Below, in pieces: positions 18,429 through 56,614 of a stretch of 64,000 nt of DNA (its first letter is position 1; each line of letters begins with the position of its first letter). The translations under genes and the position numbers were made by a program. Location of the stretch: the NCBI RefSeq assembly GCF_003318275.1, contig NZ_QOCH01000009.1, positions 212,623 to 276,622 of the forward strand. Direction: 5' to 3'. The DNA comes from Marinobacter sp. F3R11 (GTDB lineage: Bacteria; Pseudomonadota; Gammaproteobacteria; Pseudomonadales; Oleiphilaceae). The notes under the pieces are model-generated. The model had not been told where the DNA came from. It searched no databases and was given only the letters and a program-made list of their open reading frames with translations.

Positions 18429-19244
18429 CTAGCCTGCCCGCTCAATAATCGTTCTGGCCATAGCTATGACCGGTGCATCCACCATCTGGCCATCCACTTT
18501 AAAGGCACCGTCTCCTGACCTGGCTGCCTTCATGACTTTGTAAGCCCACGCCACCTGCTCCGGATCCGGAGAAAAACCTGCCTGTACTGGTGCGATCTGC
18601 TTCGGGTGGATACAGAGCATACCCGCAAACCCCATGTTCCGGGCCCGACGAGCCCGACCAAGCACCGCATCTTCATCGTCAAAAACCGGGAAAACCGTAT
18701 CGATTGGCGCCAGCAAACCGGCCGCTCGGGAGCTGATCAGGAGCTGATAACGGCACTGATCCATAACAGTCTCTGCCCCCTCGGTATTGCCTTCAATGCC
18801 CAGATCATCACTGAGGTCCAGGCCGCCATAGCTCAGCCGTTCTACTCCCGGCACCGCTGCAATCTCGTTGAGAGCAACCAGCCCGATAGCAGATTCAATC
18901 AACGGGATAATGGCCTTCCCGGCACTGACCACAGCAAGAATATCATCCGCTGATTCAGCTTTCGGTAACATGATGCCGATTACCTTCGCATGACGCGTAC
19001 ACAGTGCCAGATCTTCCTCAAAACCCGCAGCTCCCCGGGCATTGATGCGCACATATACCGGCGCACCTTCATGGCTGGAAAGGAATACATCCAGCGCCTG
19101 ACGGGCAGAGTCCTTGGCGTCTGCCGGCACGGCGTCTTCCAGGTCCACAATCACCACTCCAGCATTGCTGGCAATTGCTTTGGGAATTCGCTCGGGGCGG
19201 GAAGCCGGCACGAAGAGCATGGTTTTCAAATCTCTGCCTGTCAT
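18429..19244 (-). CDS. ccl: CitE/HpcH-family CoA-ester lyase, probable citramalyl-CoA lyase
   Basis: A 271-residue TIM-barrel lyase of the CitE-like family: MLFVPASRPERIPKA at the start, IVDLEDAVPADAKDSAR (metal and substrate contacts) near residue 35, a glutamate in PLIESAIGLVAL, DLSDDLGIEGN, and the C-terminal CIHPKQIAPVQ. Such enzymes split beta-hydroxy acyl-CoAs such as (S)-citramalyl-CoA into acetyl-CoA and pyruvate. The gene is the end of a block (MaoC-like hydratase, dehydrogenase, CoA-transferase, lyase) matching in order the P. aeruginosa itaconate locus, where Ccl is the lyase. The name rests on that context; malyl-CoA-type substrates remain possible. Confidence 0.75.
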   Translation of the reverse strand: MTGRDLKTMLFVPASRPERIPKAIASNAGVVIVDLEDAVPADAKDSARQALDVFLSSHEGAPVYVRINARGAAGFEEDLALCTRHAKVIGIMLPKAESADDILAVVSAGKAIIPLIESAIGLVALNEIAAVPGVERLSYGGLDLSDDLGIEGNTEGAETVMDQCRYQLLISSRAAGLLAPIDTVFPVFDDEDAVLGRARRARNMGFAGMLCIHPKQIAPVQAGFSPDPEQVAWAYKVMKAARSGDGAFKVDGQMVDAPVIAMARTIIERAG

Positions 19245-19271
19245 GGTCAGATTCCTGTTTTCTGTATTACG

Positions 19272-20477
19272 TTAGTGTCCGATCACACCGCTATGCTGTA
19301 ACTGGCGGATCCGATCCTGGCCAATACCCAGCTCACCGAGAATTCCTGCGTTATGCTCGCCTAACTCTGGCACAGCAGAAACTGCATCGGGGAAACACAA
19401 GCCCGGCGACTTCAGGGCAGGCAGGGGTCCAGCCGGTGTTGCCACTTCCACCCAGCGGTCCCGGGCGGCCAGTTGAGGGTGGTTCCAGACCTGCGCCATA
19501 TTGTTTACCGAAGCATTAGCGATACCAGCCGAATCCAGGCGGCGCACCACTTCATCAAGGGTCATCCCGGAAAAGACCTCCCGGATAAGCGCTCCGAGCT
19601 GATCCCGGTTTGCAGATCGCCGGGGGTTATCAAGGTAGAGCTCATCCCGGGCCAGCTCCGGACGTTCCAGCACCAGCTCACAAAATACCTGCCATTCCCG
19701 GTCGTTCTGTAGCCCCAACATCACGGTTTTGCCATCCCCGACCGGAAAGGGGCCGTAGGGGTAAATCGTAGAATGGGAAGCTCCCGTCCGGGCTGGTTGC
19801 GGCGCACCCCTATAGCTGTAGTACATGGGGTAGCCCATCCACTCCACCAGACTCTCCAGCATCGACACATCAATATGACTGCCTTCGCCCGTGCGAGCCC
19901 GTAACAACAATGCTGACAAAACGGAGTTACTGGCGTACATCCCCGCAGCAATATCCGCAACTGAACAGCCAGCTTTCGCCATACCATCTGCGTCCGGCGC
20001 CCCGGTCACTGACAAAAAACCACTCTCACTCTGGATCAGCAAGTCATAGGCTTTCTTGCCACCATGGGTGCCTCCGTCGCCATAACCGGAGACGTCACAG
20101 ACAATCAACTGCGGATACTGTTCATGGAGCTCGTCGAAGGACAGCCCCATCCGGGCCGTAGCACCGGGCGCGAGGTTCTGCACAAGAACGTCTGCCTGTG
20201 CCAGCAACCTGTGAAGGATTTCCTGCCCCTCAGCAGCCTTCAGGTTCAGAGTCAGGCTTTCCTTTGAACGGTTGGCCCATACAAAGTGAGAGGAGAGTCC
20301 GTTGGCCCTGTCATCGTAGCCCCGGGCAAAATCTCCACCGTCAGGGCGCTCAACCTTGATCACTCTCGCGCCCTGTTCCGCAAGCTGACGCGTACACAAA
20401 GGAGCCGCTATGGCCTGCTCCAGTGAGACCACTGTCACCCCCTCCAGGGGGAGGGGCTTTCTGCTATTTCCTGCCAC
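19272..20477 (-). CDS. ict: CaiB/BaiF-family CoA-transferase, probable itaconate/mesaconate-type succinyl-CoA transferase
   Basis: A 401-residue class III CoA-transferase. The conserved catalytic aspartate is D175 in CSVADIAAGMYA, and the N-terminal SLEQAIAAPLCTRQLAEQGA and PDGGDFARGYD segments are typical of the family. Class III enzymes move CoA between acids through an aspartyl-CoA anhydride. Position in the operon (between a dehydrogenase and a citramalyl-CoA-lyase-like gene) matches the P. aeruginosa itaconate CoA-transferase, which moves CoA from succinyl-CoA to itaconate. GTG start with AAGGGAAGG upstream. Mesaconate or citramalate as acceptor cannot be excluded. Confidence 0.7.
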   Translation of the reverse strand: MAGNSRKPLPLEGVTVVSLEQAIAAPLCTRQLAEQGARVIKVERPDGGDFARGYDDRANGLSSHFVWANRSKESLTLNLKAAEGQEILHRLLAQADVLVQNLAPGATARMGLSFDELHEQYPQLIVCDVSGYGDGGTHGGKKAYDLLIQSESGFLSVTGAPDADGMAKAGCSVADIAAGMYASNSVLSALLLRARTGEGSHIDVSMLESLVEWMGYPMYYSYRGAPQPARTGASHSTIYPYGPFPVGDGKTVMLGLQNDREWQVFCELVLERPELARDELYLDNPRRSANRDQLGALIREVFSGMTLDEVVRRLDSAGIANASVNNMAQVWNHPQLAARDRWVEVATPAGPLPALKSPGLCFPDAVSAVPELGEHNAGILGELGIGQDRIRQLQHSGVIGH

Positions 20478-20503
20478 AAAAACCTTCCCTTGGATGCCAG
20501 ACG

Positions 20504-21667
20504 TCAGAAAGACCGCGGCAACTCCAGCAGATGCTCAGCCACATATGAGAGAATCAGATTGGTAGAGATGGGCGCTACCTGATACAGGCGCGTTTCCCGG
20601 AACTTCCGTTCCACGTCGTACTCATTGGCAAAGCCAAACCCACCGTGAGTCTGCAGGCATACATTGGCGGCCTCCCAGGAGGATTCGGCAGCCAGATACT
20701 TCGCCATATTGGCACTGGCACCTGCGTTCCGGCCACTGTCGTATTCTTCACAGGCGCGCCAGCGCATCAGATCCGCTGCTTCTACGTTGATATGGGCCTT
20801 GGCGATGGGAAACTGAACCCCCTGATTCTTGCCAATCGGGCGGCCAAACACTTCCCGCTCACTGGCGTACTTGCGTGCCTTGTCTATAAACCAGCGCCCG
20901 TCGCCAACGCATTCGGCTGCTATCAGAGTGCGCTCGGCATTGAGACCGTCGAGAATATAGCGAAACCCTTTACCCTCCTCGCCAATCAGATTTTCGGCGG
21001 GAATCTCCAGGTTATCGAAGAAGAGTTCATTGGTTTCGTGATTTACCATATTGGCAATAGGCTGAACTGTCAGACCATTACCTATGGCGTGTTGCAGGTC
21101 GACGATAAAAATCGACATGCCTTCTGACTTGCGTTTGACGTCTTCCAGCGGTGTTGTGCGGGCCAGCAGGATCATCAGGTCTGAATGCTGGATGCGGGAG
21201 ATCCATACTTTCTGGCCGTTGATCACGTACTTGTCGCCCTGGCGGACCGCTGTAGTCTTGATCTTGGTGGTATCCGTTCCTGTGGTTGGCTCGGTTACAC
21301 CCATGGATTGCAGACGTAATTTGCCTGCGGCAATTCCTGGAAGGTAGTTCTGTTTCTGTTCTTCGCTGCCGTGACGCAACAGGGTAAACATGTTGTACAT
21401 CTGGCCATGTACGGTTCCGGAATTACCACCGGCACGATTGACCTCTTCAAGAATAACCGAAGCTTCTGCCACCCCAAGGCCTGAACCGCCATACTCCTCA
21501 GGAATCATCGCGGCCAGCCAGCCAGCCCGGGTCATCGCCTCGACAAACTCCTCAGGGAAAGCTTTCCTTTCGTCTATGCCGCGCCAGTACGCAGCGTCAA
21601 ACTCCGCGCACAAGCCACGTACACCCTCGCGAATATCCTGATACTTCTCCAGTGATGGACTGGTCAT
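20504..21667 (-). CDS. acyl-CoA dehydrogenase in the itaconate-type operon
   Basis: A 387-residue FAD-dependent acyl-CoA dehydrogenase: GVTEPTTGTDTTKIKT, KVWISRIQHSDL, LIGEEGKGFRYILDGLNAER, LQTHGGFGFANEYDVERKFRE. The C-terminal end (YQVAPISTNLILSYVAEHLL) differs from the GGSNEI type. The start ATG directly follows the stop of the hydratase gene, with AAGGAG 8 bases upstream, so they are co-translated. The P. aeruginosa itaconate locus also has a dehydrogenase gene next to ich; its role there is not needed for the three core steps, and the substrate here is unknown. Confidence 0.88.
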   Translation of the reverse strand: MTSPSLEKYQDIREGVRGLCAEFDAAYWRGIDERKAFPEEFVEAMTRAGWLAAMIPEEYGGSGLGVAEASVILEEVNRAGGNSGTVHGQMYNMFTLLRHGSEEQKQNYLPGIAAGKLRLQSMGVTEPTTGTDTTKIKTTAVRQGDKYVINGQKVWISRIQHSDLMILLARTTPLEDVKRKSEGMSIFIVDLQHAIGNGLTVQPIANMVNHETNELFFDNLEIPAENLIGEEGKGFRYILDGLNAERTLIAAECVGDGRWFIDKARKYASEREVFGRPIGKNQGVQFPIAKAHINVEAADLMRWRACEEYDSGRNAGASANMAKYLAAESSWEAANVCLQTHGGFGFANEYDVERKFRETRLYQVAPISTNLILSYVAEHLLELPRSF

Positions 21668-22501
21668 CTATTTGTTCTCCTTGAACTCAAGTTCTGCCTC
21701 GTGCGCCGGGCCGTCTTCATTGGCAGCCCAAAGCAATGCCTGACCGTTGCCGTCTATCCGCCCTGCAACCTCGAATGACTTGTTTACGGTTAATGGTCGC
21801 AATCCCCGGTAGGACAGGCGTACCGGCGTCAGTCCCGGGTTGGCATCCACAAAGGCCTGCACCATCAGCGTGGCTATCATCGGCCCATGAACCACCAGAT
21901 CCGGATACCCTTCTTTCTCAGTGGCGTAAGGATGATCGTAATGAATACGGTGGCCATTGAACGTAACCGCCGAATAGCGGAACAACAGCAGCGGTGACGG
22001 CTGAATCGACTGGCTCCACTGAGCCTCTGCGACCGGCTTGTCCAGTGACAACCGCGGCGCTGCCGGTGCCTTGTATACAATGTCCTGCTCCTCGCTCAGA
22101 CACAGCACGCCATTCTGGCGGTATTCATGCTCCACCGTGACGAACAGCAACTTGCCAGAACGCCCCGTTTTTTCATTGATCGCCTTAATGCAGGACTGGC
22201 GTTCCGCTGGCTGACCTATGGCGAGTGGCCGGTGAAAATTAACGCGACCACCTGCCCACATCCGGGTGCTGCCTTCAGATATGGGCAAAAAACCACCCGG
22301 CGCTATGTGACCATCCGGCCCCGTAGCGGAAGGCGGTACCGGAATCTGGAAAAATGCCCAGTGCCACAGAGCTGCAAGGTCATCACCCTCCCGGGGGAGC
22401 GGGCGATCCAGCATGGCTGCAATACGACCGGCATGAGAGGGGTCCAGGCGATCCCTGCAGGATTCCTGCTTGCCGATCCAGCCTTCGGGAGAGCTTGACA
22501 T
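21668..22501 (-). CDS. ich: MaoC-like hydratase, itaconyl-CoA/mesaconyl-C4-CoA hydratase type
   Basis: A 277-residue two-hotdog protein of the HTD2/mesaconyl-C4-CoA hydratase group. The N-terminal half has WAFFQIPVP and APGGFLP..MWAGGRV; the C-terminal half carries FRYSAVTFNGHRIHYDHPYA and DLVVHGPMIATLM, the usual active-site block. Such enzymes hydrate itaconyl-CoA or mesaconyl-C4-CoA to citramalyl-CoA, the substrate of the CitE-like lyase three genes downstream. I start at the ATG (22501) with GAGG 7 bases upstream rather than the GTG one codon earlier. First gene of the leftward operon, divergent from a LysR gene. Confidence 0.75.
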   Translation of the reverse strand: MSSSPEGWIGKQESCRDRLDPSHAGRIAAMLDRPLPREGDDLAALWHWAFFQIPVPPSATGPDGHIAPGGFLPISEGSTRMWAGGRVNFHRPLAIGQPAERQSCIKAINEKTGRSGKLLFVTVEHEYRQNGVLCLSEEQDIVYKAPAAPRLSLDKPVAEAQWSQSIQPSPLLLFRYSAVTFNGHRIHYDHPYATEKEGYPDLVVHGPMIATLMVQAFVDANPGLTPVRLSYRGLRPLTVNKSFEVAGRIDGNGQALLWAANEDGPAHEAELEFKENK

Positions 22502-22631
22502 CACGCATCCTCTTATCAGTCTTTATTCTGGATTTCGAACAATGGTAAGAATGCCGTTATACAACGCCCGGGAGTATTCGTTTTTCCACAAGGGTGCGTT
22601 TTGTTTCCATGAACACCCCAGTGGGTTTAGA

Positions 22632-22669: not shown

Positions 22670-23629
22670 ATGCACTTTGATATTCCTGATCTCCGCCTGT
22701 TTATCCATGTAGCCGAAGCCAATAGTCTTACCGGCGGGGCCCGCCGTGCCTGCCTGTCCACTGCTGCGGCCAGCATGCGGATCAAGTCACTGGAGGGGCA
22801 GCTCGGCAGCCGTCTGTTCTACCGCGACAGCCAGGGCGTGGAACTGACGCCTGCTGGTCATGACCTCCTGGTCCATGCACGCGCAATCATGCGCCAGGTG
22901 GATTACATCAAAGATGAGTTTTCCCAGTATGCTGAAGGGGAGTCGGGGCATTTACGCATATTCGCCAATACCACAGCGGTAAGCGATTTCATGCCAGATG
23001 TGCTGGCGAGTTTTCTGGTCAACCGGCCTGGCGTTACGATTGACCTCCAGGAACGCCTCACCAACGACATCATTCGTGGGGTAGTTGACGGATCAACCGA
23101 CCTGGGTGTCGTCGCCGGCCCGGTAAGCCCCCACAAAAAGCTCGAAATTATTCCCTTCAGTGTAGACCGGCTGGTAGTTGTAACCCGGAAAGATCATGAA
23201 CTGGCCACGCGAAGGGCAGTTTCATTCATCGAAACTCTCCGCTACTCCCACATTGGTTTACGGGAAGGCAGCACCCTGTTCAACTTTCTCAAGGAGCAGT
23301 CCAGCGAAACCGGTTCAACTCTTCAGATGAGGATCCAGGTCTTCGGTTTTGAGTCAGCCTGCCGGATGGTCAGCCGGGGTGTGGGCATAAGCATATTGCC
23401 CCGTTCTATTGCACAGAGGTACGCGGATTTTCTGGATATTGCGACCATCGATCTGGAAGACGACTGGGCGGAGCGGGAACGTAGCCTGATTGTCCGCGAG
23501 TTTGATGCCCTGCCCAAATGTGGCAAGGAGTTAGTGGAGAAAATAAGAAATCTGTCCTCGCCTGAAGCGACGCACAAGCTGAAGGAAAGTGATCCCGCTC
23601 TTGCTCAAAGCATCAAAAAGGAAGAGTAA
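22670..23629 (+). CDS. LysR-family regulator of the itaconate-type operon
   Basis: A 319-residue LysR protein: N-terminal winged helix-turn-helix (AEANSLTGGARRACLSTAAA, then MRIKSLEGQLGSRLFYRDSQ) and a C-terminal effector domain (LRIFANTTAVSDFMPDVLASF). It is divergent from the hydratase/dehydrogenase/CoA-transferase/lyase operon, the same arrangement as the LysR gene beside the P. aeruginosa itaconate genes. No clear ribosome site precedes the ATG; a perfect palindrome lies just upstream. The last 17 bases overlap the convergent transporter gene. Confidence 0.88.
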   Translation: MHFDIPDLRLFIHVAEANSLTGGARRACLSTAAASMRIKSLEGQLGSRLFYRDSQGVELTPAGHDLLVHARAIMRQVDYIKDEFSQYAEGESGHLRIFANTTAVSDFMPDVLASFLVNRPGVTIDLQERLTNDIIRGVVDGSTDLGVVAGPVSPHKKLEIIPFSVDRLVVVTRKDHELATRRAVSFIETLRYSHIGLREGSTLFNFLKEQSSETGSTLQMRIQVFGFESACRMVSRGVGISILPRSIAQRYADFLDIATIDLEDDWAERERSLIVREFDALPKCGKELVEKIRNLSSPEATHKLKESDPALAQSIKKEE

Positions 23630-33495: not shown

Positions 33496-33534
33496 TCGCA
33501 GTCAGCGGCGGATTATCAATAAAAGGATTGGGCT

Positions 33535-39063: not shown

Positions 39064-39088
39064 AATAAATCTCCCATGAGCTGTGAGC

Positions 39089-43993: not shown

Positions 43994-44082
43994 ATGCACC
44001 TCCCGGTAGAGACCTGCCCAGAACCAGGACAGGTCACGATTTCTGAATGATGGTGTTTCCCGGTCAAACTGACCGTTCAGGA

Positions 44083-44109
44083 ACTGCCGGCAGCAATAAC
44101 GCCGGCAGT
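44083..44109 (-). other. intercistronic hairpin after the second TRAP 3 binding-protein gene
   Basis: ACTGCCGGC (44083-44091) and GCCGGCAGT (44101-44109) form a perfect 9-bp stem 11 bases after the binding-protein stop. No T-tract follows. A smaller dyad CGGTCA-AAC-TGACCG lies at 44061-44075. Such hairpins often protect the binding-protein message so that it outnumbers the permease message. Confidence 0.6.
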
Positions 44110-44120
44110 AAGGTCAGCAA

Positions 44121-45197: not shown

Positions 45198-45271
45198 TTT
45201 TATTATGCCCTTTGGTTTTAAAGGTTACTTGTCCGACTATCCGTCATTTCAATGGCATATCTGAAACGTTC

Positions 45272-45294
45272 GGCAAGGAGGGAGCATCCTTGCC
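45272..45294 (-). other. intercistronic hairpin after the first TRAP 3 binding-protein gene
   Basis: GGCAAGGA (45272-45279) and TCCTTGCC (45287-45294) form a perfect 8-bp stem with a 7-base loop, 9 bases after the stop of the binding-protein gene at 45304. No T-tract follows. It has the same position relative to its gene as the hairpin at 44083. Confidence 0.55.
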
Positions 45295-45303
45295 TGCCAA
45301 CCA

Positions 45304-46371
45304 TCAGCTCTCCCAAGGGTAGCCCTTGGAATCAGCCTGGGCCTGATATTTTTTCAGCAGTTCGATGTAGTGGTCCCAGATCTGTTGACCAGCCATCCCG
45401 CGACCATTGACCTCTTCAATCCAGCTATCCCGGAACTTGAGAGTGGCATCAAGAATTTTCTGGCGTTCCTCCGGGGCCATGTCGGTAACAGGAACCACCT
45501 TTCCAAACCCACCGCTGGCCAGACTCTTGGCAACTTCACCCGCATCTTCGATTGTCAGCTGGGAAAAATGATCGATCATGTTGTCACCAGCCTGCATCAG
45601 AATCGCCTGCTGCTTTTCATCAAAATCAGACCAGACAAATTCGTTCATCACGATGGCAAAACCCAGTAGCTGGCCCCAGTCAACCCGGGTTACCGACTCA
45701 ACTACTTCGTATGTCTTATAGGCTTTCATGGTGTAGAAATAGCTGGCGAGGCAATCCACCAGGCCAGTATCCAGCGCCTGATAGACTTCACCGAAAGTCA
45801 TACTCACGGTGTCGGCCCCAAGGTCTGCCAACACATTGGTATAAGTGCCGGTCGCGCGGATCCGTTTGCCCTTGATGTCGTCAACGGTGAGAATCTGGTT
45901 GCCCTCCGTACATTCGAACTGGACACCAGTTGTACTGAAATTACTGATATAGACCAGGGATTGGTCCGCAAGGGATTTTTTGAGCTGAGGCTCAGTGGTC
46001 ATGAGCTCATACATTGCACGCATACCTACCCAGGGATCTGCGTACTCGAGGGGGATATCGCCGATACCAAGCGCCTTCAATTCCTGCGGCTCGTAGGATG
46101 ACAGCACTGAGCCAAGGTCTGCACTACCTGCAGAAACACCGTCCAACACGCCGCTCCACTTGAGCAGTGCACCACCCCAGTGGATATCAACCTTGATATC
46201 ACCACCAGACAGGCGTTCAACTTCATCGGCAAAAAACTGAACAGCTGCAGCACGGGTGCCTCGATTAGGCCCACCTTCTGCATATCGCAACACGACTTCA
46301 GCATGGGCCTGAACGGCCCCGGCTATAACCAGAACAAATCCTAAAACCAGAGATCTGAGGGTTGTTACCAT
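45304..46371 (-). CDS. TRAP transporter substrate-binding protein (DctP family), system 3, copy 1
   Basis: A 355-residue periplasmic protein; signal peptide about residues 1-24 (SLVLGFVLVIAGAVQAHA). The mature part VVLRYAEGGPNRGTRAAAVQ, VDIHWGGALLKWS, DLGSVLSSYEPQE, VYQALDTGLVDCLASY parallels the downstream copy. GGGAG lies 7 bases before the ATG. First gene of the TRAP 3/ligase unit. The 46372-46519 gap before it, which should contain its promoter, shows no clear motif to me. Confidence 0.9.
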   Translation of the reverse strand: MVTTLRSLVLGFVLVIAGAVQAHAEVVLRYAEGGPNRGTRAAAVQFFADEVERLSGGDIKVDIHWGGALLKWSGVLDGVSAGSADLGSVLSSYEPQELKALGIGDIPLEYADPWVGMRAMYELMTTEPQLKKSLADQSLVYISNFSTTGVQFECTEGNQILTVDDIKGKRIRATGTYTNVLADLGADTVSMTFGEVYQALDTGLVDCLASYFYTMKAYKTYEVVESVTRVDWGQLLGFAIVMNEFVWSDFDEKQQAILMQAGDNMIDHFSQLTIEDAGEVAKSLASGGFGKVVPVTDMAPEERQKILDATLKFRDSWIEEVNGRGMAGQQIWDHYIELLKKYQAQADSKGYPWES

Positions 46372-48120: not shown

Positions 48121-49674
48121 TCAGATCTTGCGACCGGCCAGTTGCCAGTATTTATCCCGTAGCCTGCGCTTGAAAATCTTGCCCGAGTCTTCCCGGGGCA
48201 GATCCTTGCCGGTCTCGATCGTTCTGGGCACTTTGAAGCCTGCAAGGTGCTCTCGCAGATAAACCCTGACTTCATCAAGGGAAATACTATCCTCGCTTTC
48301 GACTTCCAGTACCGCCATCACGGCTTCCCCGAACTCTTCATCCGGCACCCCGAACACTGCACAATCCTTGATACCCGGATAGTTGTGCAAGACTGCCTCG
48401 ATCTCCGCCGGATAAATATTCACTCCACCCGAGATAACCATATCCTTCACACGATCGGCAATGAACAGGAAATCGTCCTCGTCCATATAGCCCATGTCAC
48501 CAGAGGTGATATGGCCATCGCGCTCGATTTCCGCCCGCGCTTCCGGCCTGCCATTGTAGGTAAAATCATTCATGGGAAAGCGCGAATAGATTTCACCGAT
48601 GGCGTTTGCTGGCAGTACATTGCCATCCTCATCAAGGATGCGAACACTGGCCTCCGGTACTGGTTTACCAACACTGCCGGGTTTTGACAGTGCCTGTGCC
48701 GAGTTACAGGCAACTACAGCACCGGATTCAGTAGAACCATAGAATTCGTATATCACGGGCCCGAACCACTCGATCATCCGGCGTTTAACATCCGCAGGAC
48801 AGGGTGCGGCCGCGTGAATAATAAATTCCAGAGACGACAGGTCGCACCTGTTGCGAACATCGTCCGCAAGCTTGAGCATACGGATAAACATGATCGGCAC
48901 CAGCATGCCTGCCGTGAGCCGGTATTCCTCTACAAGCTGAAGCAGGCTCTCTGCATCAAAACGCGGCACGATCACCAGAAGGTCACTGATCCTGGATGCC
49001 TGCATGCTGTAGCCGTTGGGTGCACTGTGATAAAGAGGGCCTGGCACCACGCAGCGGGCGCCGGGAGCACAACCGTATACCCGTGACCGGAAATCACGCA
49101 TCAGGGCCGCTTTCTCTTCATCAAGGGCAAACCGGCGAACACCTTTAGGGTGACCTGTAGTACCTGAGGTATACAGCATAGATGACAGCCCGGCCTGAGC
49201 CGGCCCGGTAATCGGCTGCTGGCCTTGAAGCCACTGGCTCCAGTTGGTCAGACCTTCCGGCACTTTGCAGGCCTGGGGATCCAGGCCGAAAGCATTCCCT
49301 ACGTCCTCGTGAGTTTCCACCACCAGACACTTCACACTTTCTGGAATCGCCTCATGGATAGCTCGCCAGAGGTCGGCATGGATAACCAGAACTTTGGCAC
49401 CACAGTCGTTCAGAATATAGGTCAGTTCCTCTCCGACCAGATGCCAGTTGATGGGCACTGCATAGGCGCCCACATAGTTGGCAGCCTGGCTGGCTGTAAG
49501 AAAAGGGATATCGTTACGCATGAAAATGCCGACACAATCTCCCGGCTCGACACCCATGCCTGTGAAGCCCGCTGCAGCACGGCGGACATCGTTCTGGAAT
49601 GCTTCGTGGGTCAGATGCCTGCTGCCACAGACAATACCTTTGAACGTACTTCTATCAATTGTTGTAGTGGTCAC
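48121..49674 (-). CDS. AMP-forming acyl-CoA synthetase
   Basis: A 517-residue ANL ligase: P-loop YTSGTTGHPKG near residue 165, EFYGSTESGA near 310, ITSGDMGYMDEDDFLF near 395 and C-terminal lysine in REDSGKIFKRRL near 500. I start at the GTG at 49674, which has AGGAG 8 bases upstream and leaves a 43-base gap after the crotonase gene; an ATG at 49752 would overlap that gene by 35 bases. It is the last gene of the long leftward operon that starts near 60588 and may activate the pathway's entry acid. Confidence 0.85.
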   Translation of the reverse strand: MTTTTIDRSTFKGIVCGSRHLTHEAFQNDVRRAAAGFTGMGVEPGDCVGIFMRNDIPFLTASQAANYVGAYAVPINWHLVGEELTYILNDCGAKVLVIHADLWRAIHEAIPESVKCLVVETHEDVGNAFGLDPQACKVPEGLTNWSQWLQGQQPITGPAQAGLSSMLYTSGTTGHPKGVRRFALDEEKAALMRDFRSRVYGCAPGARCVVPGPLYHSAPNGYSMQASRISDLLVIVPRFDAESLLQLVEEYRLTAGMLVPIMFIRMLKLADDVRNRCDLSSLEFIIHAAAPCPADVKRRMIEWFGPVIYEFYGSTESGAVVACNSAQALSKPGSVGKPVPEASVRILDEDGNVLPANAIGEIYSRFPMNDFTYNGRPEARAEIERDGHITSGDMGYMDEDDFLFIADRVKDMVISGGVNIYPAEIEAVLHNYPGIKDCAVFGVPDEEFGEAVMAVLEVESEDSISLDEVRVYLREHLAGFKVPRTIETGKDLPREDSGKIFKRRLRDKYWQLAGRKI

Positions 49675-49717
49675 TGTCTGAGCTCCTGTGACCAGCCGGT
49701 CAAATGGTGTGACAAAA

Positions 49718-50515
49718 TTAACGGCCGGTATACTGCGGTTTGCGCTTTTCATTAAAGGCAGTGACGCCTTCTACCCAGTCATCCGCCATGACGCTATCCC
49801 CAAAGGTTTCAGCCTCGGACTGCAACTGCTGCTCAAGGGAATTTTCAGAGGATTGCAGAATCAGCTTCTTGATATTGCCCAAAGCTCTGGATGGCCCCTT
49901 CGCCAGCCGTTCTGCCAGCCTGCGGGTTTCCGACTCAAGGTCCGCTCCAGGCACAACCCGATTGATCATGCCTATATCTTTGGCTTCTTCAGCGGTGAAG
50001 CGGTCCCCCAGGAGCGCAATTTCCATGGCTTTCTTGGTTCCGACCAATCTTGGCAGATAGTAAGTAGCCCCTCCATCCGGACTGCTTGCAATGTGGCTAT
50101 AGGCCAAAGTGAAGAAAGCGTCTTCGGCAGCCACAACCAGGTCGCAGCTCAGGGCCATGCTGACACCAGCGCCCGCAGCTGCTCCTCGCACGCTGGCGAT
50201 AACAGGTTTGTTGAGCCTGCGCATTGTGTACATGAGGCCATTGAGATTGGCGTGAATCCGGTTAACGAACGTCAGCCGTCGCTCTACCGGAGTCAGACTG
50301 GCGAACTCCATGAAGGACTTGACGTCGCCTCCAGCCATGAAATGTTCGCCTGCACCTCGCAGGACCACACACCGGACTGACTCGTCAGATTCCAGGGACT
50401 GAAAGGTCTCCAGTAGCTTCTTGCGCATATCCAATGAAAGTGCGTTTCTAACCTCTGGACGATTCATTGTCAGGTAAGCAACACCGTTTTTTGTTTCGTA
50501 TAGAAGATGGCTCAT
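49718..50515 (-). CDS. enoyl-CoA hydratase/isomerase family protein, PaaG-like
   Basis: A 265-residue crotonase-fold protein. The oxyanion-hole segments HFMAGGDVKSFME and GAAAGAGVSMALSCDL are present; the Glu144 position is serine and the Glu164 site is not acidic, but an aspartate is kept in IASSPDGGATYYLPRL, as in PaaG-type isomerases. It is related to the protein at 47293 (same QYTGR/EFTGR ending), so the cluster holds two such isomerase-like enzymes on opposite strands. AGGA precedes the ATG. Confidence 0.86.
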   Translation of the reverse strand: MSHLLYETKNGVAYLTMNRPEVRNALSLDMRKKLLETFQSLESDESVRCVVLRGAGEHFMAGGDVKSFMEFASLTPVERRLTFVNRIHANLNGLMYTMRRLNKPVIASVRGAAAGAGVSMALSCDLVVAAEDAFFTLAYSHIASSPDGGATYYLPRLVGTKKAMEIALLGDRFTAEEAKDIGMINRVVPGADLESETRRLAERLAKGPSRALGNIKKLILQSSENSLEQQLQSEAETFGDSVMADDWVEGVTAFNEKRKPQYTGR

Positions 50516-50571: not shown

Positions 50572-51687
50572 TTAAGCGCCTATTGCTTCCAGTTGTTCCT
50601 TACTGAACCCCAGTTCAGCAAAAACTGACTCCGTATCAATTCCCAAAGCCCTGGCCGGATGACGAACCTCCGGCGGAGTCCTGCTGAAGCGGGGAGCCGG
50701 GGCCGGCTGCGTCATGTCGCCTACCTTCACATAGGTTTGCCGGGCCAGGTTGTGCGGATGCCCCTGCGCCTCCTGGATATCAAGTACAGGCGCAAAGCAG
50801 ATATCGGTTCCTTCCATCAGGTCACACCACTGATCCCGGGTCTTTGTCAGGAAGACTTCACTGATCACCTGTTTGAGTTCCGGCCAACGCTGATTATTGA
50901 GCTGGTCAGCAAACAGATCCTGCGGCAAACCCGCCACATCCAATAGCTGGGCATAGAACTGAGGCTCGATCGAACCAATTGAAATGTACTTGCCATCAAG
51001 GGTTTCGTAGGTGTCGTAGAAATGCGCGCCACCATCAAGCTTGTTGGTGCCCCGCTCAAGAGAGTATGTCCCCATGGCATGAGCTGTATGAAACATGGAC
51101 ATCAGAATGGCGGAGCCGTCGGTCATGGCTGCATCGATCACCTGCCCTTTTCCTGACGTCCGGGCCTCCAGGAGCCCCGCAACCAGCCCAAGTGCCAGGA
51201 ACATGCCGCCGCCGCCAAAGTCACCTACCAGATTAAGTGGCGGCACCGGTTTTTCTCCGGCACGACCCACTGCATTAAGGGCACCGGTCAGAGAGATGTA
51301 GTTGATATCGTGGCCGGCCGCATGAGACAGAGGGCCAAACTGGCCCCAACCGGTCATGCGACCAAAAATCAGTTTTGGATTGCGGGCGAGACACTCGTCC
51401 GGGCCAATACCCAGTTTTTCGGTTACGCCAGGGCGGAAACCTTCGAACAGGGCGTCGGCGCTTTCCACCAGTTTCAGCAAAGCCTCTACGCCAGCCTCGC
51501 TCTTGAGATCCAAAGCAATGGAGCGTTTGCCCCTGCGACTGCAATCCAGTGCCACATCTGGCGCACTGGCACCGAGGCGCTCTACGCTGATTACTTCGGC
51601 ACCCATATCGGCCAGTACCATGCCGCAGAATGGTCCCGGACCAATGCCGGCCAACTCGATAATACGAAACCCGTGCAGCGGTCCCAT
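50572..51687 (-). CDS. alpha-methylacyl-CoA racemase (AMACR/MCR family)
   Basis: A 371-residue CaiB-family protein with the racemase catalytic pair: H126 in AAGHDINYISLTG and D156 in NLVGDFGGGGMF, at the same numbering as in the well studied mycobacterial MCR. These residues exchange the alpha proton of 2-methylacyl-CoAs so that the (2S) form can enter beta-oxidation. AAGGAG precedes the ATG. The neighbouring hydratase-2, SDR and SCP2-thiolase genes are the same set used in peroxisomal branched-chain oxidation, which strengthens the assignment over plain CoA transfer. Confidence 0.9.
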   Translation of the reverse strand: MGPLHGFRIIELAGIGPGPFCGMVLADMGAEVISVERLGASAPDVALDCSRRGKRSIALDLKSEAGVEALLKLVESADALFEGFRPGVTEKLGIGPDECLARNPKLIFGRMTGWGQFGPLSHAAGHDINYISLTGALNAVGRAGEKPVPPLNLVGDFGGGGMFLALGLVAGLLEARTSGKGQVIDAAMTDGSAILMSMFHTAHAMGTYSLERGTNKLDGGAHFYDTYETLDGKYISIGSIEPQFYAQLLDVAGLPQDLFADQLNNQRWPELKQVISEVFLTKTRDQWCDLMEGTDICFAPVLDIQEAQGHPHNLARQTYVKVGDMTQPAPAPRFSRTPPEVRHPARALGIDTESVFAELGFSKEQLEAIGA

Positions 51688-51743: not shown

Positions 51744-52970
51744 TTACTGGCCAGAACCTGCCACAATTTTCTGGTCGAACAATCGTGCGATCTCACCAGC
51801 AGACAGGTTGAGGGTTTCCGCCAGAATTTCCTCAGTATGTTCACCCAGGGCCGGCGCGGGCCGAACTGGCTCCTGCTCTAACGAGGTAAAGCGCAATGGG
51901 TTATCAGGCATCAGGTATTTACCAATACCAGGTTGCTCCACCATCTGAAACAACGGGTTATCCACTGAGCAGTCCACGTCGTTTTCAACCACTTCCCGGA
52001 CGGTCTGGTATTTCCCCCAGCAGGCTCCGGCATTGTCCAGTTCTGTCGCCACCTGCTCAAAACGGCGGGCAGCAAACCAGGGGCGGAAAATCCCGGTAAT
52101 ACCATCACGGCCTTCGTAACGATCGCCTTCCTTACGGAAGTCCAGTCCCATACTCTGCTGAAGAGCGGTAATTTCTGCTTCAGTTCCCGTCACTTCCACC
52201 AACGCCCGCCAGTGATTCGGGCTGACACCCACCACCATCACCCGCTCGCCATCAAGACACTGGAAGTCATGTCCGTAAGTGCCGTAAATGTCATTACCAA
52301 TGGCCTCACGATCCGTACCATTTATCATGGTTTCAGCGATATAGCCGAGATTGCCAAGGGTCGCCAGTGCTACGTCCGCCAGGGCAATACGCACTAATTG
52401 TCCCTGGCCTGTGCGGCTGCGATGGCGTTCGGCCGCCAGCAACCCAAGGGCGATTTGCTGACCGGTGATAACATCCCAGGCTGGCATGGGGTTGTTCAGC
52501 GGAGGAATCTCACCGCTCTTCCCTACCCCTGTAAGCGCCGGGAAACCCACTTTGCAGTTGACTGTGTAATCAAGGGCTCCACGACCATGGCGGTCGCCAA
52601 TCAGATTGAGATAAATCAGATCTTCCCGGTGCTCTTTCAACCGGTCATAGGACAACCAGCCTTTGGCGGGGAAATTGGTCAGAAACATACCGGCTTCATC
52701 ACCCGGAGCGGCAATCAGCCGGGTCAGCAACTCCTGACCTTCGGGCCGGCGGAAGTCCACCGCAATGGAGCGCTTGCCCTTATTCAGGCTATGCCAGTAA
52801 AGGCTTTTTCTGTCGGCTGTCACCGGCCAGCGGTTGTAATCGATACCGCCACCAATGGGATCAAAACGAATAACGTCCGCTCCCAGTTGAGCCAATGTCA
52901 TACCACCGGACGGCGCAGCCACGAAAGCGCTGCCTTCAACGATACGAAGCCCTGAAAGAATGTTCTGCAT
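51744..52970 (-). CDS. CaiB-family protein, mesaconyl-C1/C4-CoA transferase (Mct; 2-methylfumaryl-CoA isomerase) type
   Basis: A 408-residue class III CoA-transferase. The start (LRIVEGSAFVAAPSGGMTLA, then QLGADVIRFDPIGGGIDYNR), NKGKRSIAVDFR, MFLTNFPAKGWLSYD and DYTVN segments match what I know of the Mct group, and the family aspartate is D166 in PAWDVITGQ. Mct moves CoA within mesaconyl-CoA from C1 to C4. The gene lies two genes from a methylsuccinyl-CoA-dehydrogenase-like gene, whose product would be mesaconyl-C1-CoA, so the pairing makes chemical sense. Related family members may act on other diacids. Confidence 0.72.
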   Translation of the reverse strand: MQNILSGLRIVEGSAFVAAPSGGMTLAQLGADVIRFDPIGGGIDYNRWPVTADRKSLYWHSLNKGKRSIAVDFRRPEGQELLTRLIAAPGDEAGMFLTNFPAKGWLSYDRLKEHREDLIYLNLIGDRHGRGALDYTVNCKVGFPALTGVGKSGEIPPLNNPMPAWDVITGQQIALGLLAAERHRSRTGQGQLVRIALADVALATLGNLGYIAETMINGTDREAIGNDIYGTYGHDFQCLDGERVMVVGVSPNHWRALVEVTGTEAEITALQQSMGLDFRKEGDRYEGRDGITGIFRPWFAARRFEQVATELDNAGACWGKYQTVREVVENDVDCSVDNPLFQMVEQPGIGKYLMPDNPLRFTSLEQEPVRPAPALGEHTEEILAETLNLSAGEIARLFDQKIVAGSGQ

Positions 52971-52989: not shown

Positions 52990-53847
52990 TCAGCTGACTT
53001 CGGCGTATCCGTTATTGATCACCACAACATCCCGCTCGGTCACTCGACAGCGGAAAGCGACTTCATTGCCGTTGCGCCAGATTTCAGTGCGGATAGTCTC
53101 ACCCGGGTAAACAGGGGATGAGAACCTCAGCCGAATACGGTGGAACCTGGCCGGATCGTAATCACACAGGGTCTTCAGAATAGCGTGAGTGGCTACCCCG
53201 AATGTGCACAGACCATGCAGAATCGGCGCTTTGAAGCCGGCAGATTTTGCTACCGACGGGGAAGCATGCAGCGGGTTATAATCTCCGGACAACCGGTAGA
53301 TCAGTGCCGACATGGGGAGGGTTGGCAGATCACAGATCATATCCGCCTCACGTTCAGGAATCGGATCCGGCTTGGGTGAAGGTACTGACGGGCCACCAAA
53401 ACCACCATCACCCCGGGCTATGGTTGTGCTGATCAGGGTACACAGGTCTTCACCAGTAGCAGCATCACGAACTGTTCGTTCTGAAAGGATCAGGGCACCT
53501 TTGCCCTCTCCCTTGTCGACGATTTCGTTTATTTTAGTCGTAGCTTCAACCGTTCCGGATGCAGGCAGGGGTTTATGTATGATCATTTCCTGGCCTGCGT
53601 GAAGGATCTTCACCCAGTCGATCCCTGTATCCGGCTCTTTCGCCCAGAAACCGGGGTATGCCAGTACATTGGCCATACTCGGCATAGCCTTAAGGCCATC
53701 TTCGTAGACAAATCTCAGGCAGTCTTCATCAAGAGGGTCTATACCCAGCCCCACACCCAATGCATACAGGATCGTGTCTTTCTCGGTATAGGTGTGCTCA
53801 AGACGCTCGAACTTGCGGTTCATCAGCTTATCGTAATCGATGGCCAC
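52990..53847 (-). CDS. MaoC-type 2-enoyl-CoA hydratase 2 (peroxisomal MFE-2 hydratase domain type)
   Basis: A 285-residue double-hotdog protein. The hydratase-2 motif is complete: YRLSGDYNPLHASP (D189, N191, H194) followed by GFKAPILHGLCTFG, and the N-terminal half YALGVGLGIDPLDEDCLRFVYED matches the MFE-2 hydratase domain. It would add water to trans-2-enoyl-CoA to give (3R)-hydroxyacyl-CoA, the substrate of the SDR encoded just upstream. GTG start with AAGGAG 7 bases upstream. It is distinct from the shorter-chain, HTD2-type hydratase at 21668. Confidence 0.87.
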   Translation of the reverse strand: MAIDYDKLMNRKFERLEHTYTEKDTILYALGVGLGIDPLDEDCLRFVYEDGLKAMPSMANVLAYPGFWAKEPDTGIDWVKILHAGQEMIIHKPLPASGTVEATTKINEIVDKGEGKGALILSERTVRDAATGEDLCTLISTTIARGDGGFGGPSVPSPKPDPIPEREADMICDLPTLPMSALIYRLSGDYNPLHASPSVAKSAGFKAPILHGLCTFGVATHAILKTLCDYDPARFHRIRLRFSSPVYPGETIRTEIWRNGNEVAFRCRVTERDVVVINNGYAEVS

Positions 53848-53934: not shown

Positions 53935-54855
53935 TCAGAACGGATCCCAGCTGAATACGTCCGCAGAGCGGCTCAGGGGATAAAAATCCGCTTCAAAGGC
54001 AGGCAACACCCGGCTCAGAACCGTCTCAGGAGTCCAGCCGTCAGACGTGTGCGCAGACCGGAACGGGCGTGGCTGGCTGAACAGGAAGATCTCGTTATTA
54101 CGTACGCCAAAGATCTGACCTGTCACGTTCCTGGCCTGATCACTGCACAGGGACACAGCCAGAGTAGCGATCTTGTCTGGTGTCATCTGCTGGATCTTGG
54201 CTACGCGTGCCTTCTGAGCTTCATCATCTGTAGGGATGGTTCCGATCAGACGACTCCATGCGAATGGTGCGATACAGTTAGAGGTTACCCCGAAACGCTG
54301 CATGTCCAGCGCCATGGATTTGGACAGACCAACAATACCCATTTTGGCGGCAGCGTAGTTGGCCTGGCCAAAGTTACCAATAAGGCCAGAGGTGGACGTC
54401 ATGTTGACGAAAGTACCGCTGCCCTGTTCACGGAAAATCGGGGCTGCAGCGCGGCTTACGTTGAAGGTTCCCTTCAGGTGTACCGCAAGCACTGCGTCAA
54501 AATCTTCCTCAGTCATCTTGTGGAAAATCACGTCACGCAGGTTACCGGCATTGTTGATCACGCCGTCAAGGCGCCCAAAGGTATCGATAGCCGACTGTAC
54601 AATTTTCTGACCACCTTCCCAGGACGTCACGCTGTCAAAGTTTGCAACAGCGTCACCGCCGGCAGCTTTGATTTCATTCACCACTTCCTGAGCCGGGGTG
54701 GCATCGTTACCGGAACCATCGGCATTACCACCGATATCGTTAACCACTACCCGGGCACCTTTTTCTGCCAGCATCAGTGCAGTCGCACGGCCAATACCAC
54801 GGCCGGCTCCGGTAACCACGATAACTTTGCCTTCCAGAAGTTTTTTATCGCTCAT
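53935..54855 (-). CDS. short-chain dehydrogenase, (3R)-hydroxyacyl-CoA dehydrogenase (MFE-2/HSD17B4 SDR domain) type
   Basis: A 306-residue SDR: cofactor motif TGAGRGIG (15-22), VVVNDIGGNADGSG, NNAG (101-104), serine near 154, and YxxxK at Y167/K171 in FGQANYAAAKMG. The VNDIGG segment, AGNLRD and the GNFGQANY block match the dehydrogenase domain of peroxisomal multifunctional enzyme type 2, which oxidises (3R)-hydroxyacyl-CoA with NAD. AGGAGG precedes the ATG. The hydratase-2 gene follows, so the two MFE-2 domains are encoded by separate adjacent genes here. Confidence 0.87.
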   Translation of the reverse strand: MSDKKLLEGKVIVVTGAGRGIGRATALMLAEKGARVVVNDIGGNADGSGNDATPAQEVVNEIKAAGGDAVANFDSVTSWEGGQKIVQSAIDTFGRLDGVINNAGNLRDVIFHKMTEEDFDAVLAVHLKGTFNVSRAAAPIFREQGSGTFVNMTSTSGLIGNFGQANYAAAKMGIVGLSKSMALDMQRFGVTSNCIAPFAWSRLIGTIPTDDEAQKARVAKIQQMTPDKIATLAVSLCSDQARNVTGQIFGVRNNEIFLFSQPRPFRSAHTSDGWTPETVLSRVLPAFEADFYPLSRSADVFSWDPF

Positions 54856-54902: not shown

Positions 54903-54917
54903 GCAGTGAAACACTGC
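54903..54917 (-). other. small intercistronic hairpin after the Mcd-like gene
   Basis: GCAGTG-AAA-CACTGC is a perfect 6-bp stem with a 3-base loop, 29 bases after the stop of the Mcd-like gene and about 50 bases before the SDR start. No T-tract follows. Confidence 0.4.
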
Positions 54918-54946
54918 GGGACAATCAGGTCTGGTACGTCCGCCAT

Positions 54947-56614
54947 TCAGGCGTTACTCACCAGGTTTCTTGCAATAACTTTAAGCGCGAGGGTTTCTTC
55001 GGCACCCTCAAAAATAGACAGCACCCGGGCATCGACAAAATAACGGCTCACCGCGGTTTCTTCGGCATACCCCATGCCGCCATGAATCTGCATCGCTTCG
55101 CGGGTAACCCACTCAGCCGCACGACAACTGAACAACTTCACCAGGCTTGCTTCCATCTGCCCGGCTCCATTGTCCATCATGCGCGCAACTGCATAGCTGA
55201 ACTGACGAGAGGCCGTCAGGGTTGCCATGATCCTCCCGAGTTTTACCCGGGTAAGCTGATAGTCGCCCACAGGGCTACCAAACACCTTGCGTTCACGGGA
55301 GTAACTCAAAGCCTTCTCAAAAGCTGCCTGCATTACTCCGGTTGCCCGCGCTGCGGTCTGGATACGACCACCGGAGAAGCCGGCCATGGTGAAATAAAAG
55401 CCTTTTCCACGGCCATTCTCCTCACCGATCAGTCGGTCAGCAGGTACAAAGTAGTCCTCAAAAAAAACATCATAGGAATGCATACCACGGTAACCCAGAG
55501 TGGCAATCGCCTTGCCCTGAATCACTCCGCCCCGGGGTTGCTGGTGACGGAATTCATGGCCCGCAACAGGCGGTTTTTCCACCAGAAAAAGGCTCAGCCC
55601 TTTGTGCCCCAGCGCTGAATCCGGCTCAGTACGGGCCATTGCCAGCAACAAACTGGCCTTGCCGGCAAAGGTACACCAGGTTTTGCTGCCATTGAGCACC
55701 CAGCCACCTTCCACAGGCGTAGCCCTGAGCCCCAGCGATGCGACATCAGAACCGTAGTTCGGTTCGGTAATTGCAATGGCACACAGTTTTTCGCCTGATG
55801 CTATTTGGGGCAGCCAGGTCTCCTGCTGAGCCTGTGTACCACCCTGCAACAACGCCTTGGCTGCGATTTCGGGACGGGTAATCAGAGAACCCGCAGCACC
55901 CAGAGAAGCTTTTGAAAGTTCTTCTGTAACCACAATCATGCCAAGGCTGTCGTCATGATCGTCTGGCTGCAGCCCCCCGAAACGCTCGGGAATACTGATG
56001 CCAAAACAACCAAGTTCTGCCGCCCGGCTCAGAATGTCATCAGGAATATCGAGATCTTTACGGTGGATTTCCTCCGCCAGTGGCGCAACAACATCCGCAC
56101 CAAAACGTGCAAACATGTCGCGGACCATTTCCTTGTCTTCACTTAACAGACTCGGCAAACGACTGCTGCCACGTTCGGCAACAGCTGTTCCGATAGCAGC
56201 GAGAAACTCAGCGCTGCCGTAGCGGGCACTCATGTTGCGGATGTCAGTGGCACCATAGAGTGCAGATACTTCCACAACATCCAGCCCCAGATCCGCTGCG
56301 CGGGCAACCAGGCGCTGGAGAACGGAACCGACGGCTTCAGCGGTGAACGCAAGTGCGGTATCCGTCGCAATGGGATCAACATCACCCAGCTTACGTGCGT
56401 ATGAGCACAGCTCGCGGGCAGCGCCCAATTCAGCAGTACAGAAAGCCAGTTCGTAACAGCCGAGCTGATGATCGTCCAATAGCTTCCCGTCCAGCGTGTC
56501 ATTCACTGTGCAGGCCGCCCGGAGATACTTCAGTGCCTGACGGACAAATGGCTCAACCGTATTAATGCTACTGCCTGCCAGTTCAAGAGCTGCTGCCTGT
56601 TCACCGAGACTCAT
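54947..56614 (-). CDS. acyl-CoA dehydrogenase with N-terminal extension, methylsuccinyl-CoA dehydrogenase (Mcd)-like
   Basis: A 555-residue protein, about 170 residues longer than ordinary acyl-CoA dehydrogenases. Residues 1-155 are an alanine-rich helical extension; the dehydrogenase fold starts near 160. Core motifs: ISIPERFGGLQPDD, AITEPNYGSDVASLGL, TWCTFAGKASLLL, and near the end IHGGMGYAEETAVSRYFVDA with VLSIFEGAEETLALKVIA. Length, extension and the FEGAEETL ending match what I know of (2S)-methylsuccinyl-CoA dehydrogenase of the ethylmalonyl-CoA pathway, which makes mesaconyl-C1-CoA. No ethylmalonyl-CoA pathway genes for the earlier steps are seen, so methylsuccinyl-CoA or a related branched acyl-CoA would come from elsewhere. 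Confidence 0.72.
   Translation of the reverse strand: MSLGEQAAALELAGSSINTVEPFVRQALKYLRAACTVNDTLDGKLLDDHQLGCYELAFCTAELGAARELCSYARKLGDVDPIATDTALAFTAEAVGSVLQRLVARAADLGLDVVEVSALYGATDIRNMSARYGSAEFLAAIGTAVAERGSSRLPSLLSEDKEMVRDMFARFGADVVAPLAEEIHRKDLDIPDDILSRAAELGCFGISIPERFGGLQPDDHDDSLGMIVVTEELSKASLGAAGSLITRPEIAAKALLQGGTQAQQETWLPQIASGEKLCAIAITEPNYGSDVASLGLRATPVEGGWVLNGSKTWCTFAGKASLLLAMARTEPDSALGHKGLSLFLVEKPPVAGHEFRHQQPRGGVIQGKAIATLGYRGMHSYDVFFEDYFVPADRLIGEENGRGKGFYFTMAGFSGGRIQTAARATGVMQAAFEKALSYSRERKVFGSPVGDYQLTRVKLGRIMATLTASRQFSYAVARMMDNGAGQMEASLVKLFSCRAAEWVTREAMQIHGGMGYAEETAVSRYFVDARVLSIFEGAEETLALKVIARNLVSNA

Follow-up and report, generated by a model that had tools for sequence, protein, structure and literature searches.

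Two operons on the minus strand of a 64,000-nucleotide stretch of Marinobacter sp. F3R11 DNA (contig NZ_QOCH01000009.1, positions 212,623 to 276,622; hereafter the window) probably form one catabolic route, judging from their gene content and their linkage in relatives. The upstream operon is predicted to cut a methyl-branched dicarboxylic acid (diacid) down to methylsuccinyl-C1-coenzyme A (CoA); two of its products, the dehydrogenase Mcd and the CoA-shifting enzyme Mct, would then feed the downstream, itaconate-type operon. A wider reading is offered more tentatively, and we lean slightly against it: a full bacterial pathway for diacids of the 3-methyladipate type (tails of methylcycloalkanes and isoprenoids), which would combine peroxisome-style beta-oxidation, a catabolic Mcd clade, an Mct re-used from the 3-hydroxypropionate bicycle and itaconate enzymes. 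An initial annotation of the window had named four of the proteins involved: Mcd, Mct, a Meh/Ich-like hydratase and a Ccl-like lyase. All four open reading frames lie on the minus strand where it placed them, with the Ich frame listed as 21668-22504, and the four family names are borne out by matches to solved structures. It overlooked the CoA-transferase (19272-20477), the second acyl-CoA dehydrogenase (20504-21667) and the beta-oxidation nature of the upstream operon. The host genome assembly, 82% complete, consists of 19 contigs that total 3.38 Mb.

The upstream operon contains ten genes, running from 60588 down to 48121 with intergenic gaps of -35 to 91 bp. The order is acyl-CoA dehydrogenase, a fusion of a 3-hydroxy-3-methylglutaryl-CoA synthase (HMGCS)-like protein with an OB fold, SCP2-type thiolase, Mcd, short-chain dehydrogenase/reductase (SDR), hydratase of the type found in multifunctional enzyme type 2 (MFE-2), Mct, racemase, enoyl-CoA hydratase/isomerase and acyl-CoA ligase (Table 1). 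On these predicted families it looks like a beta-oxidation operon; the input is therefore more likely to be a longer methyl-branched diacid that arrives as a C1 thioester. The presumed racemase is closer to solved racemases than to the best family III CoA-transferase (132 bits). The HMGCS-like/OB fusion is the predicted partner of the thiolase. It is not supported as an active HMG-CoA synthase: cysteine is missing from the stretch that we take to be the active-site region in the window copy and in 11 of 13 compared relatives, and is present in two Porticoccaceae-type copies. Where this fusion is present, it always adjoins an SCP2-type thiolase.

Mcd has 555 amino acids, and its acyl-CoA dehydrogenase N domain begins at residue 158, after an N-terminal extension. 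The best solved match, 8ciw, is named (2S)-methylsuccinyl-CoA dehydrogenase and aligns with residues 22-553; the second, 6es9 (310 bits), aligns with residues 7-552. Both alignments cover most of the extension, and the similarity is thus full-length. In a tree of 72 rows, the window protein falls in a 65-row clade with 8ciw (support 100/99), while four Paracoccus-type rows are separate (support 100/97); the outgroup branches are very long. Sequence marks agree with this split: WCTFAG and GYRGMHS are found in nine of nine compared rows of the large clade, WITHA and GYRGM(K/R)E in all four Paracoccus-type rows. P. denitrificans is an ethylmalonyl-CoA-pathway organism (PMC10370305); among the four Paracoccus-type rows, evidence for that pathway covers the P. 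denitrificans row alone. Since the window Mcd groups with 8ciw and apart from the P. denitrificans protein, it does not appear to be an ethylmalonyl-CoA-pathway enzyme moved to a new setting.

A clean divide between Mct-linked and other Mcd clades is not borne out. An Mct-like CoA-transferase is encoded close by in two of the four rows of the Paracoccus type (Azospirillum, L098; Ancylobacter, L099), and both transferases are in the Mct tree; L014, in the large Mcd clade, has no Mct in its flank. A genome labelled Granulosicoccaceae (L022) holds a Marinobacter-like copy of the operon with its Mcd inside the Marinobacter clade, which hints at inter-family transfer or at mislabelling.

The best solved matches of Mct are 7xkg, which we take to be the Roseiflexus enzyme studied in PMC9196870, and 8apq, named 2-methylfumaryl-CoA isomerase. 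Arg47 and Asp165 are the catalytic residues of Mct according to excerpts of PMC9196870. Arg47 and Asp166 of the window protein match this pair, which is kept in 76 of 76 family rows; Arg47 is missing in all three outgroup proteins. A tree of 79 rows, built by a quick method, places the window protein within the Mct family alongside 7xkg. Tree placement of the two enzymes is thus in line with the families first proposed for them. Marinobacter profundi (contig NZ_KZ319372.1) carries an Mct that is 94% identical to that of the window.

The downstream operon runs from 22504 down to 18429. Its four genes (ich, an acyl-CoA dehydrogenase gene, ict and ccl) occur together as in the itaconate/methylsuccinate cluster of pseudomonads. 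Goenner and co-workers, working with C. necator and P. aeruginosa proteins, found that this cluster handles both itaconate and methylsuccinate via methylsuccinyl-C4-CoA and mesaconyl-C4-CoA (excerpts of PMC12290011); a consistent genetic result comes from De Witt and co-workers (excerpts of PMC9875883). The downstream half of the route is therefore already known. The window dehydrogenase (20504-21667) shares 81% identity with its counterpart on a Marinobacter sp. M3C plasmid; there, a MaoC-type hydratase gene is followed by those for the dehydrogenase, MmgE/PrpD and the CoA-transferase, with the lyase on the opposite strand.

MmgE/PrpD, a member of the five-gene form of the cluster, was not found among the window proteins scanned; the frame at 23613-24953 matches no Pfam or NCBIfam family. 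A plasmid cluster of Burkholderia pyrrocinia likewise has no MmgE gene. Nine of the ten Marinobacter genomes that carry Mcd (see below) have an MmgE/PrpD match; the host genome has one, on another contig, and in carrier G003 a second match lies about 50 kb from Mcd on the same contig. An MmgE-type isomerase is therefore possible in G003.

One sample of 61 Marinobacter genomes was searched three times, for Mcd (at least 72% identity), for Mct (E < 1e-100) and for Ich (E < 0.001). Mcd was found in 10 of the 61 genomes, in 11 copies; the next among the matches listed has 37% identity. Mct is present in exactly the same ten. Ich was found in 13 genomes, namely all ten Mcd carriers, G004 and G020 (both full length) and G057 (a weak partial match). 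Fisher p values are 1e-11 for Mcd with Mct and 7e-10 for Ich (3e-9 if the weak match is counted); these are too small, as the genomes are related. Identity of Ich to the window protein is at least 78% in eight of the carriers (own copy included) and 41-45% in G050 and G013. In all ten, Ich lies on the Mcd contig, about 5-50 kb away. In the window, the complete set from methylsuccinyl-CoA to pyruvate and acetyl-CoA proposed by the initial annotation is supported by the family matches.

Gene neighbourhoods were compared at ten loci from nine relatives within the genus. The core of HMGCS-like protein, thiolase, Mcd, SDR, hydratase and Mct is kept in ten of ten, the ligase in eight. In two loci (L011 and L012), genes for dehydrogenase, Ict, Ich and Ccl immediately precede the upstream operon in the same orientation, with a gap of 23 bp; these copies have diverged from those of the window (Ich 39-42%, Ccl 30-32%, dehydrogenase 64-65% identity). 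Two others (L018 and L019) have close copies of the downstream genes within about 20 kb after the upstream operon, and two opposite-strand genes lie between. Comparative genomics thus supports a link between the two operons. One genome (G008) has two diverged copies of the upstream operon (L005 and L008), whose Mcd proteins are 87% and 76% identical to that of the window.

The route predicted from these families would run as follows. A branched diacid would be taken up by a DcaP-type porin and a tripartite ATP-independent periplasmic (TRAP) transporter and activated by the ligase (48121). Beta-oxidation would employ the acyl-CoA dehydrogenase (59449), the MFE-2-type hydratase (52990), the SDR (53935) and the thiolase (56692) with its HMGCS-like/OB partner (57920). 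The simplest substrate that fits is 3-methyladipate; methyl-aromatic or larger diacid inputs are possible. Activated at the carboxyl far from the methyl group, 3-methyladipate would give on thiolysis acetyl-CoA and methylsuccinate with CoA on C1, the carboxyl adjoining the methyl-bearing carbon. The racemase (50572) would provide (2S)-methylsuccinyl-C1-CoA, from which Mcd would produce mesaconyl-C1-CoA; Mct would then shift CoA from C1 to C4. Ich would then convert mesaconyl-C4-CoA to (S)-citramalyl-CoA, which Ccl would split into pyruvate and acetyl-CoA. The C7 acid would yield two acetyl-CoA and one pyruvate.

This order of events would resolve a mismatch. Excerpts of PMC12290011 describe Ich of this kind as acting on mesaconyl-C4-CoA, and call methylsuccinyl-C1-CoA a dead end for C. 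necator; the published downstream enzymes use C4 thioesters, so a C1-type Mcd followed by Mct would connect the two halves. A 2-methylacyl-CoA racemase likewise fits a C1 thioester, in contrast to the C4 route, in which MmgE handles stereoisomers by acting on the free acid (same excerpts).

Related layouts occur beyond the genus. Scanning with an Mct alignment brought up 107 relatives, and 80 loci were retained; counts among them are not independent, as many flanks stop at contig ends and several loci are genomes already in the Marinobacter sample. In the flank examined, full-length Mcd was found in 58 loci, thiolase in 33, HMGCS-like protein in 32, hydratase in 26, SDR in 22, Ich in 19, Ccl in 18 and racemase in 12. 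Among the 58 Mcd-bearing loci, Mcd lies no more than 100 bp before Mct in 32 and about 1.8-2.0 kb before it in 24; in two it is on the other strand. Three layouts can be told apart: the Marinobacter type, also found in Porticoccaceae and other marine Gammaproteobacteria; a type with HMGCS-like, thiolase and crotonase-type genes, found in Variovorax, Hydrogenophaga, Spongiibacter, Pseudomaricurvus and Bradyrhizobium; and a bare Mcd-Mct pair. The related layouts are found in marine Gammaproteobacteria, Burkholderiales and Bradyrhizobium.

In one gammaproteobacterial locus (L038), the genes flanking the core encode a luciferase-type monooxygenase (best solved match 3,6-diketocamphane 1,6-monooxygenase, 81 bits), an aldehyde dehydrogenase and an alpha/beta hydrolase. 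Six further loci have the hydrolase and aldehyde dehydrogenase at 73% identity or more, and two have the monooxygenase. Such a set, which lies outside the window, would fit a cyclic ketone opened to a diacid.

Several side observations concern individual loci. On the conjugative IncP plasmid pAKD34 (L013; JN106175.1, 7116-17334), an Mcd-Mct pair is flanked by two ISPps1 transposase genes, which suggests that the two genes can be mobilised as one unit. Plasmid pNS6002 of Actibacterium, from an oil-contaminated tidal flat (L103), has genes for a dehydrogenase, a CoA-transferase and Ich-like and Ccl-like proteins, arranged as in the run that precedes the operon in L011 and L012; a thiolase and an OB-fold gene are nearby on the opposite strand. 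Thirteen Acidimicrobiia-type actinobacterial Mct homologues (L056, L060, L063, L064, L067, L074, L076, L077, L081, L089, L090, L091 and L095; 51-56% identity) form one clade with no Mcd in the flank examined; these may serve another pathway.

A number of observations weigh against the proposed route. In the window, no gene was identified that would serve ring opening or chain oxidation for the proposed substrate. Mct scores 579 bits against TIGR04253 (NCBIfam), below the curated cut-off of 725, and is accordingly filed as a family member by its residues and tree position and not as a certified equivalog; Ccl scores 143 bits against NF038242 (RipC_Ccl; cut-off 375). Ich also occurs in 2 of the 51 genomes without Mct (three with the weak match), and Ich and Ccl of the fused loci L011 and L012 are 30-42% identical to those of the window. 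The racemase is found in eight of the ten relatives' loci and 12 of the 80 Mct loci, and is thus not essential to the core. Full-length Mcd is missing from the examined flank in 22 of the 80 Mct loci; 13 of these are the Acidimicrobiia-type loci. Finally, completeness of the host genome is limited, at 82%.

Other explanations of the two operons have also to be weighed. Both could serve free methylsuccinate (or mesaconate or itaconate), as in the initial annotation, with Mcd and Mct as a second, C1-based entry. Every C5 step is present, itaconate/methylsuccinate clusters are widespread (excerpts of PMC12290011), and some bare Mcd-Mct loci lie near Ich and Ccl without a thiolase (e.g. L016, L055). 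We consider this unlikely because the downstream operon already has the dehydrogenase and CoA-transferase of the published C4 route, and a full beta-oxidation set, superfluous for a C5 acid, is kept in ten of ten relatives' loci. Of the two substrates first suggested, methylsuccinate or a branched diacid, the second stands in the form of a longer methyl-branched diacid; free methylsuccinate, served by an operon of the published downstream type alone, is the less likely. Methyl-aromatics could also be the source of methylsuccinyl-C1-CoA, instead of a saturated branched diacid: ortho cleavage via 4-methyl-3-oxoadipyl-CoA yields the same thiolysis product, and a thiolase is found beside Mcd in all thiolase-bearing layouts. 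This is improbable; no ring-cleavage or muconolactone gene was found among the window proteins scanned, and the operon's own acyl-CoA dehydrogenase, hydratase and SDR would be superfluous for an oxo-acid.

It is just as doubtful that the substrates of the Mcd and Mct homologues are larger or cyclic diacid thioesters instead of C5 compounds, as they are for ThnO and ThnP in anaerobic naphthalene breakdown. Intramolecular CoA transfer after thiolysis is known for a cyclic diacid (excerpts of PMC11659651), and further acyl-CoA dehydrogenases are present in the island. However, Mct is 60% identical to 7xkg with the catalytic pair kept, Mcd groups with 8ciw, and co-occurrence with Ich points to C5 products. 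ThnP was also considered as a relative of Mct and rejected, since the same excerpts place it in transferase family I and not family III. Far less probable than any of these is a variant acetate- or CO2-assimilation cycle, i.e. the ethylmalonyl-CoA pathway or the 3-hydroxypropionate bicycle, even though Mcd and Mct are best known from those cycles (excerpts of PMC12290011 and PMC9196870). Twenty genomes, ten of them Mcd carriers, were searched for crotonyl-CoA carboxylase/reductase, and none scored above the TIGR01751 cut-off; weaker matches were seen in all 20, the best at 118 of 379 bits, 1 of 14 in the control scored above it, and ethylmalonyl-CoA mutase and markers of the 3-hydroxypropionate bicycle were not searched. 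The mesaconyl-CoA hydratase family PF19315 has no match in nine of the ten carriers and a split match above cut-off in one. Membership of the ethylmalonyl-CoA pathway is therefore unsupported by either search or by the Mcd tree, in keeping with the initial view that the genes serve catabolism and not acetate assimilation.

The neighbouring genes of the island are consistent with a methyl-branched diacid as substrate. A DcaP-type porin with about 50% identity is near the operon in five of the ten relatives' loci, and a TRAP transporter adjoins it in several (L009, L025, L028 and others). A dehydrogenase resembling PimC, which is paired with a second acyl-CoA dehydrogenase, may be a further sign of diacid metabolism. 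Together with the racemase and beta-oxidation genes, the porin, transporter and PimC-like dehydrogenase point to beta-oxidation of methyl-branched dicarboxylates. The genes at 37163-40258 may belong to the same pathway as Mct, because their counterparts directly follow Mct in L005, L018 and L019. Two frames without family matches suggest membrane proteins, perhaps transporters, by their hydrophobic sequence. Promoter-like sites (5 found, 9.3 expected) and terminator-like sites (16 found, 14.7 expected) gave no signal.

Table 1. Genes of the two operons and of the surrounding island, with window coordinates and best supporting matches.
Feature	Coordinates	Strand	Evidence
Acyl-CoA dehydrogenase, first upstream-operon gene	59449..60588	-	Pfam; in 9/10 relatives' loci
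HMGCS/PhlA-like and DUF35-type OB-fold fusion	57920..59368	-	9skh 119 bits; 6esq chain I 82 bits; 6esq chain E 26 bits
SCP2-type thiolase	56692..57891	-	7yvy 194 bits; 6esq chain A 174 bits; NF004810 676 bits, above cut-off
Mcd, (2S)-methylsuccinyl-CoA dehydrogenase family, N-terminal extension	54947..56614	-	8ciw 604 bits; 8ciw clade
SDR, predicted 3-hydroxyacyl-CoA dehydrogenase	53935..54855	-	NF005861 281 bits, below cut-off 373
MFE-2-type (hydratase 2) MaoC-fold enoyl-CoA hydratase	52990..53847	-	1s9c (peroxisomal multifunctional enzyme type 2) 187 bits
Mct-like 2-methylfumaryl-CoA isomerase family protein	51744..52970	-	541 bits, 60% identity to 7xkg; Arg47 and Asp166 conserved
Alpha-methylacyl-CoA racemase-like protein	50572..51687	-	1x74 406 bits
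Enoyl-CoA hydratase/isomerase family protein	49718..50515	-	ECH_1 215 bits
Acyl-CoA ligase	48121..49752	-	NF009071 749 bits, above cut-off 701
Ich, itaconyl-CoA/mesaconyl-C4-CoA hydratase-like	21668..22504	-	GTG start; 8khg (itaconyl-CoA hydratase) 317 bits; NCBIfam no match
Acyl-CoA dehydrogenase, counterpart of published methylsuccinyl-C4-CoA dehydrogenase	20504..21667	-	Function by analogy with PMC12290011
Ict-like family III (CaiB-type) CoA-transferase	19272..20477	-	PF02515 347 bits; gene order as in M3C plasmid itaconate cluster
Ccl, (S)-citramalyl-CoA lyase-like	18429..19244	-	Acyl-CoA lyases 8khl/9nzb, 262 bits
LysR-type regulator, divergent from downstream operon	22670..23629	+	Pfam
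LysR-type regulator, divergent from upstream operon	60855..61877	+	Pfam
DcaP-type outer membrane protein	62090..63199	+	PF19577 46 bits, cut-off 27
TRAP transporter (DctM, DctQ, two DctP)	42048..46371	-	Pfam
PimC-like pimeloyl-CoA dehydrogenase beside second acyl-CoA dehydrogenase	32314-34677		PimC-like 438 bits, cut-off 624
Acyl-CoA dehydrogenase pair and enoyl-CoA hydratase	37163-40258		Directly after Mct in L005, L018, L019
Frames of 446 and 475 amino acids	23613-24953 and 34674-36101		Pfam and NCBIfam: no match

The island shares parts with several known systems. Four of the five genes of the pseudomonad cluster (ich, mcd, mmgE, ict, ccl; excerpts of PMC12290011) are present in the downstream operon, with the same predicted end products and the gene order of the Marinobacter plasmid cluster; the window differs in having no MmgE gene and in adding a C1-type dehydrogenase and Mct through the upstream operon. 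With the ethylmalonyl-CoA pathway it shares an Mcd with an N-terminal extension and the predicted product mesaconyl-C1-CoA. In contrast to that pathway, its Mcd clade is separate from the P. denitrificans protein, the carboxylase/reductase does not score above cut-off, and the product is predicted to pass to Mct and Ich and not to glyoxylate and propionyl-CoA. The 3-hydroxypropionate bicycle passes through the same series of intermediates between mesaconyl-C1-CoA and the products pyruvate and acetyl-CoA, and has a similar Mct; however, mesaconyl-C1-CoA is here predicted to come from methylsuccinyl-CoA and not from beta-methylmalyl-CoA, in the setting of a beta-oxidation operon.

Peroxisomal beta-oxidation of branched chains employs AMACR, MFE-2 and SCPx. 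The upstream operon likewise unites a racemase, a hydratase-2 type hydratase and an SCP2-type thiolase; in contrast, it is bacterial, each of its activities has a polypeptide of its own, and chain shortening would stop at a C5 diacid. ThnP and ThnO of anaerobic naphthalene degradation offer a likeness in that CoA is moved within a diacid thioester after thiolysis, but ThnP, a family I transferase, acts before its dehydrogenase and on a cyclic substrate (excerpts of PMC11659651).

In open-licence PubMed Central literature, no prior report of the whole route was found, nor any paper on 3-methyladipate together with methylsuccinyl-CoA; among the titles listed there, none concerns bacterial 3-methyladipate catabolism. 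The enzymes are of known kinds; what is new is a beta-oxidation operon with an 8ciw-clade Mcd and Mct joined to an itaconate cluster, a combination kept in 10 of the 61 Marinobacter genomes and seen in related layouts outside the genus.

Mcd and Mct are usually taken as marks of carbon-assimilation or CO2-fixation cycles. If the proposed route is true, in many Proteobacteria they would instead mark the breakdown of methyl-branched diacids, and surveys which call such cycles from these genes would need re-examination. Methylsuccinyl-C1-CoA, the published dead end in C. necator, would gain both a source and an outlet. The route would also point to genes that can be tested for a part in the final breakdown of methylated rings and chains by marine oil-degrading bacteria.

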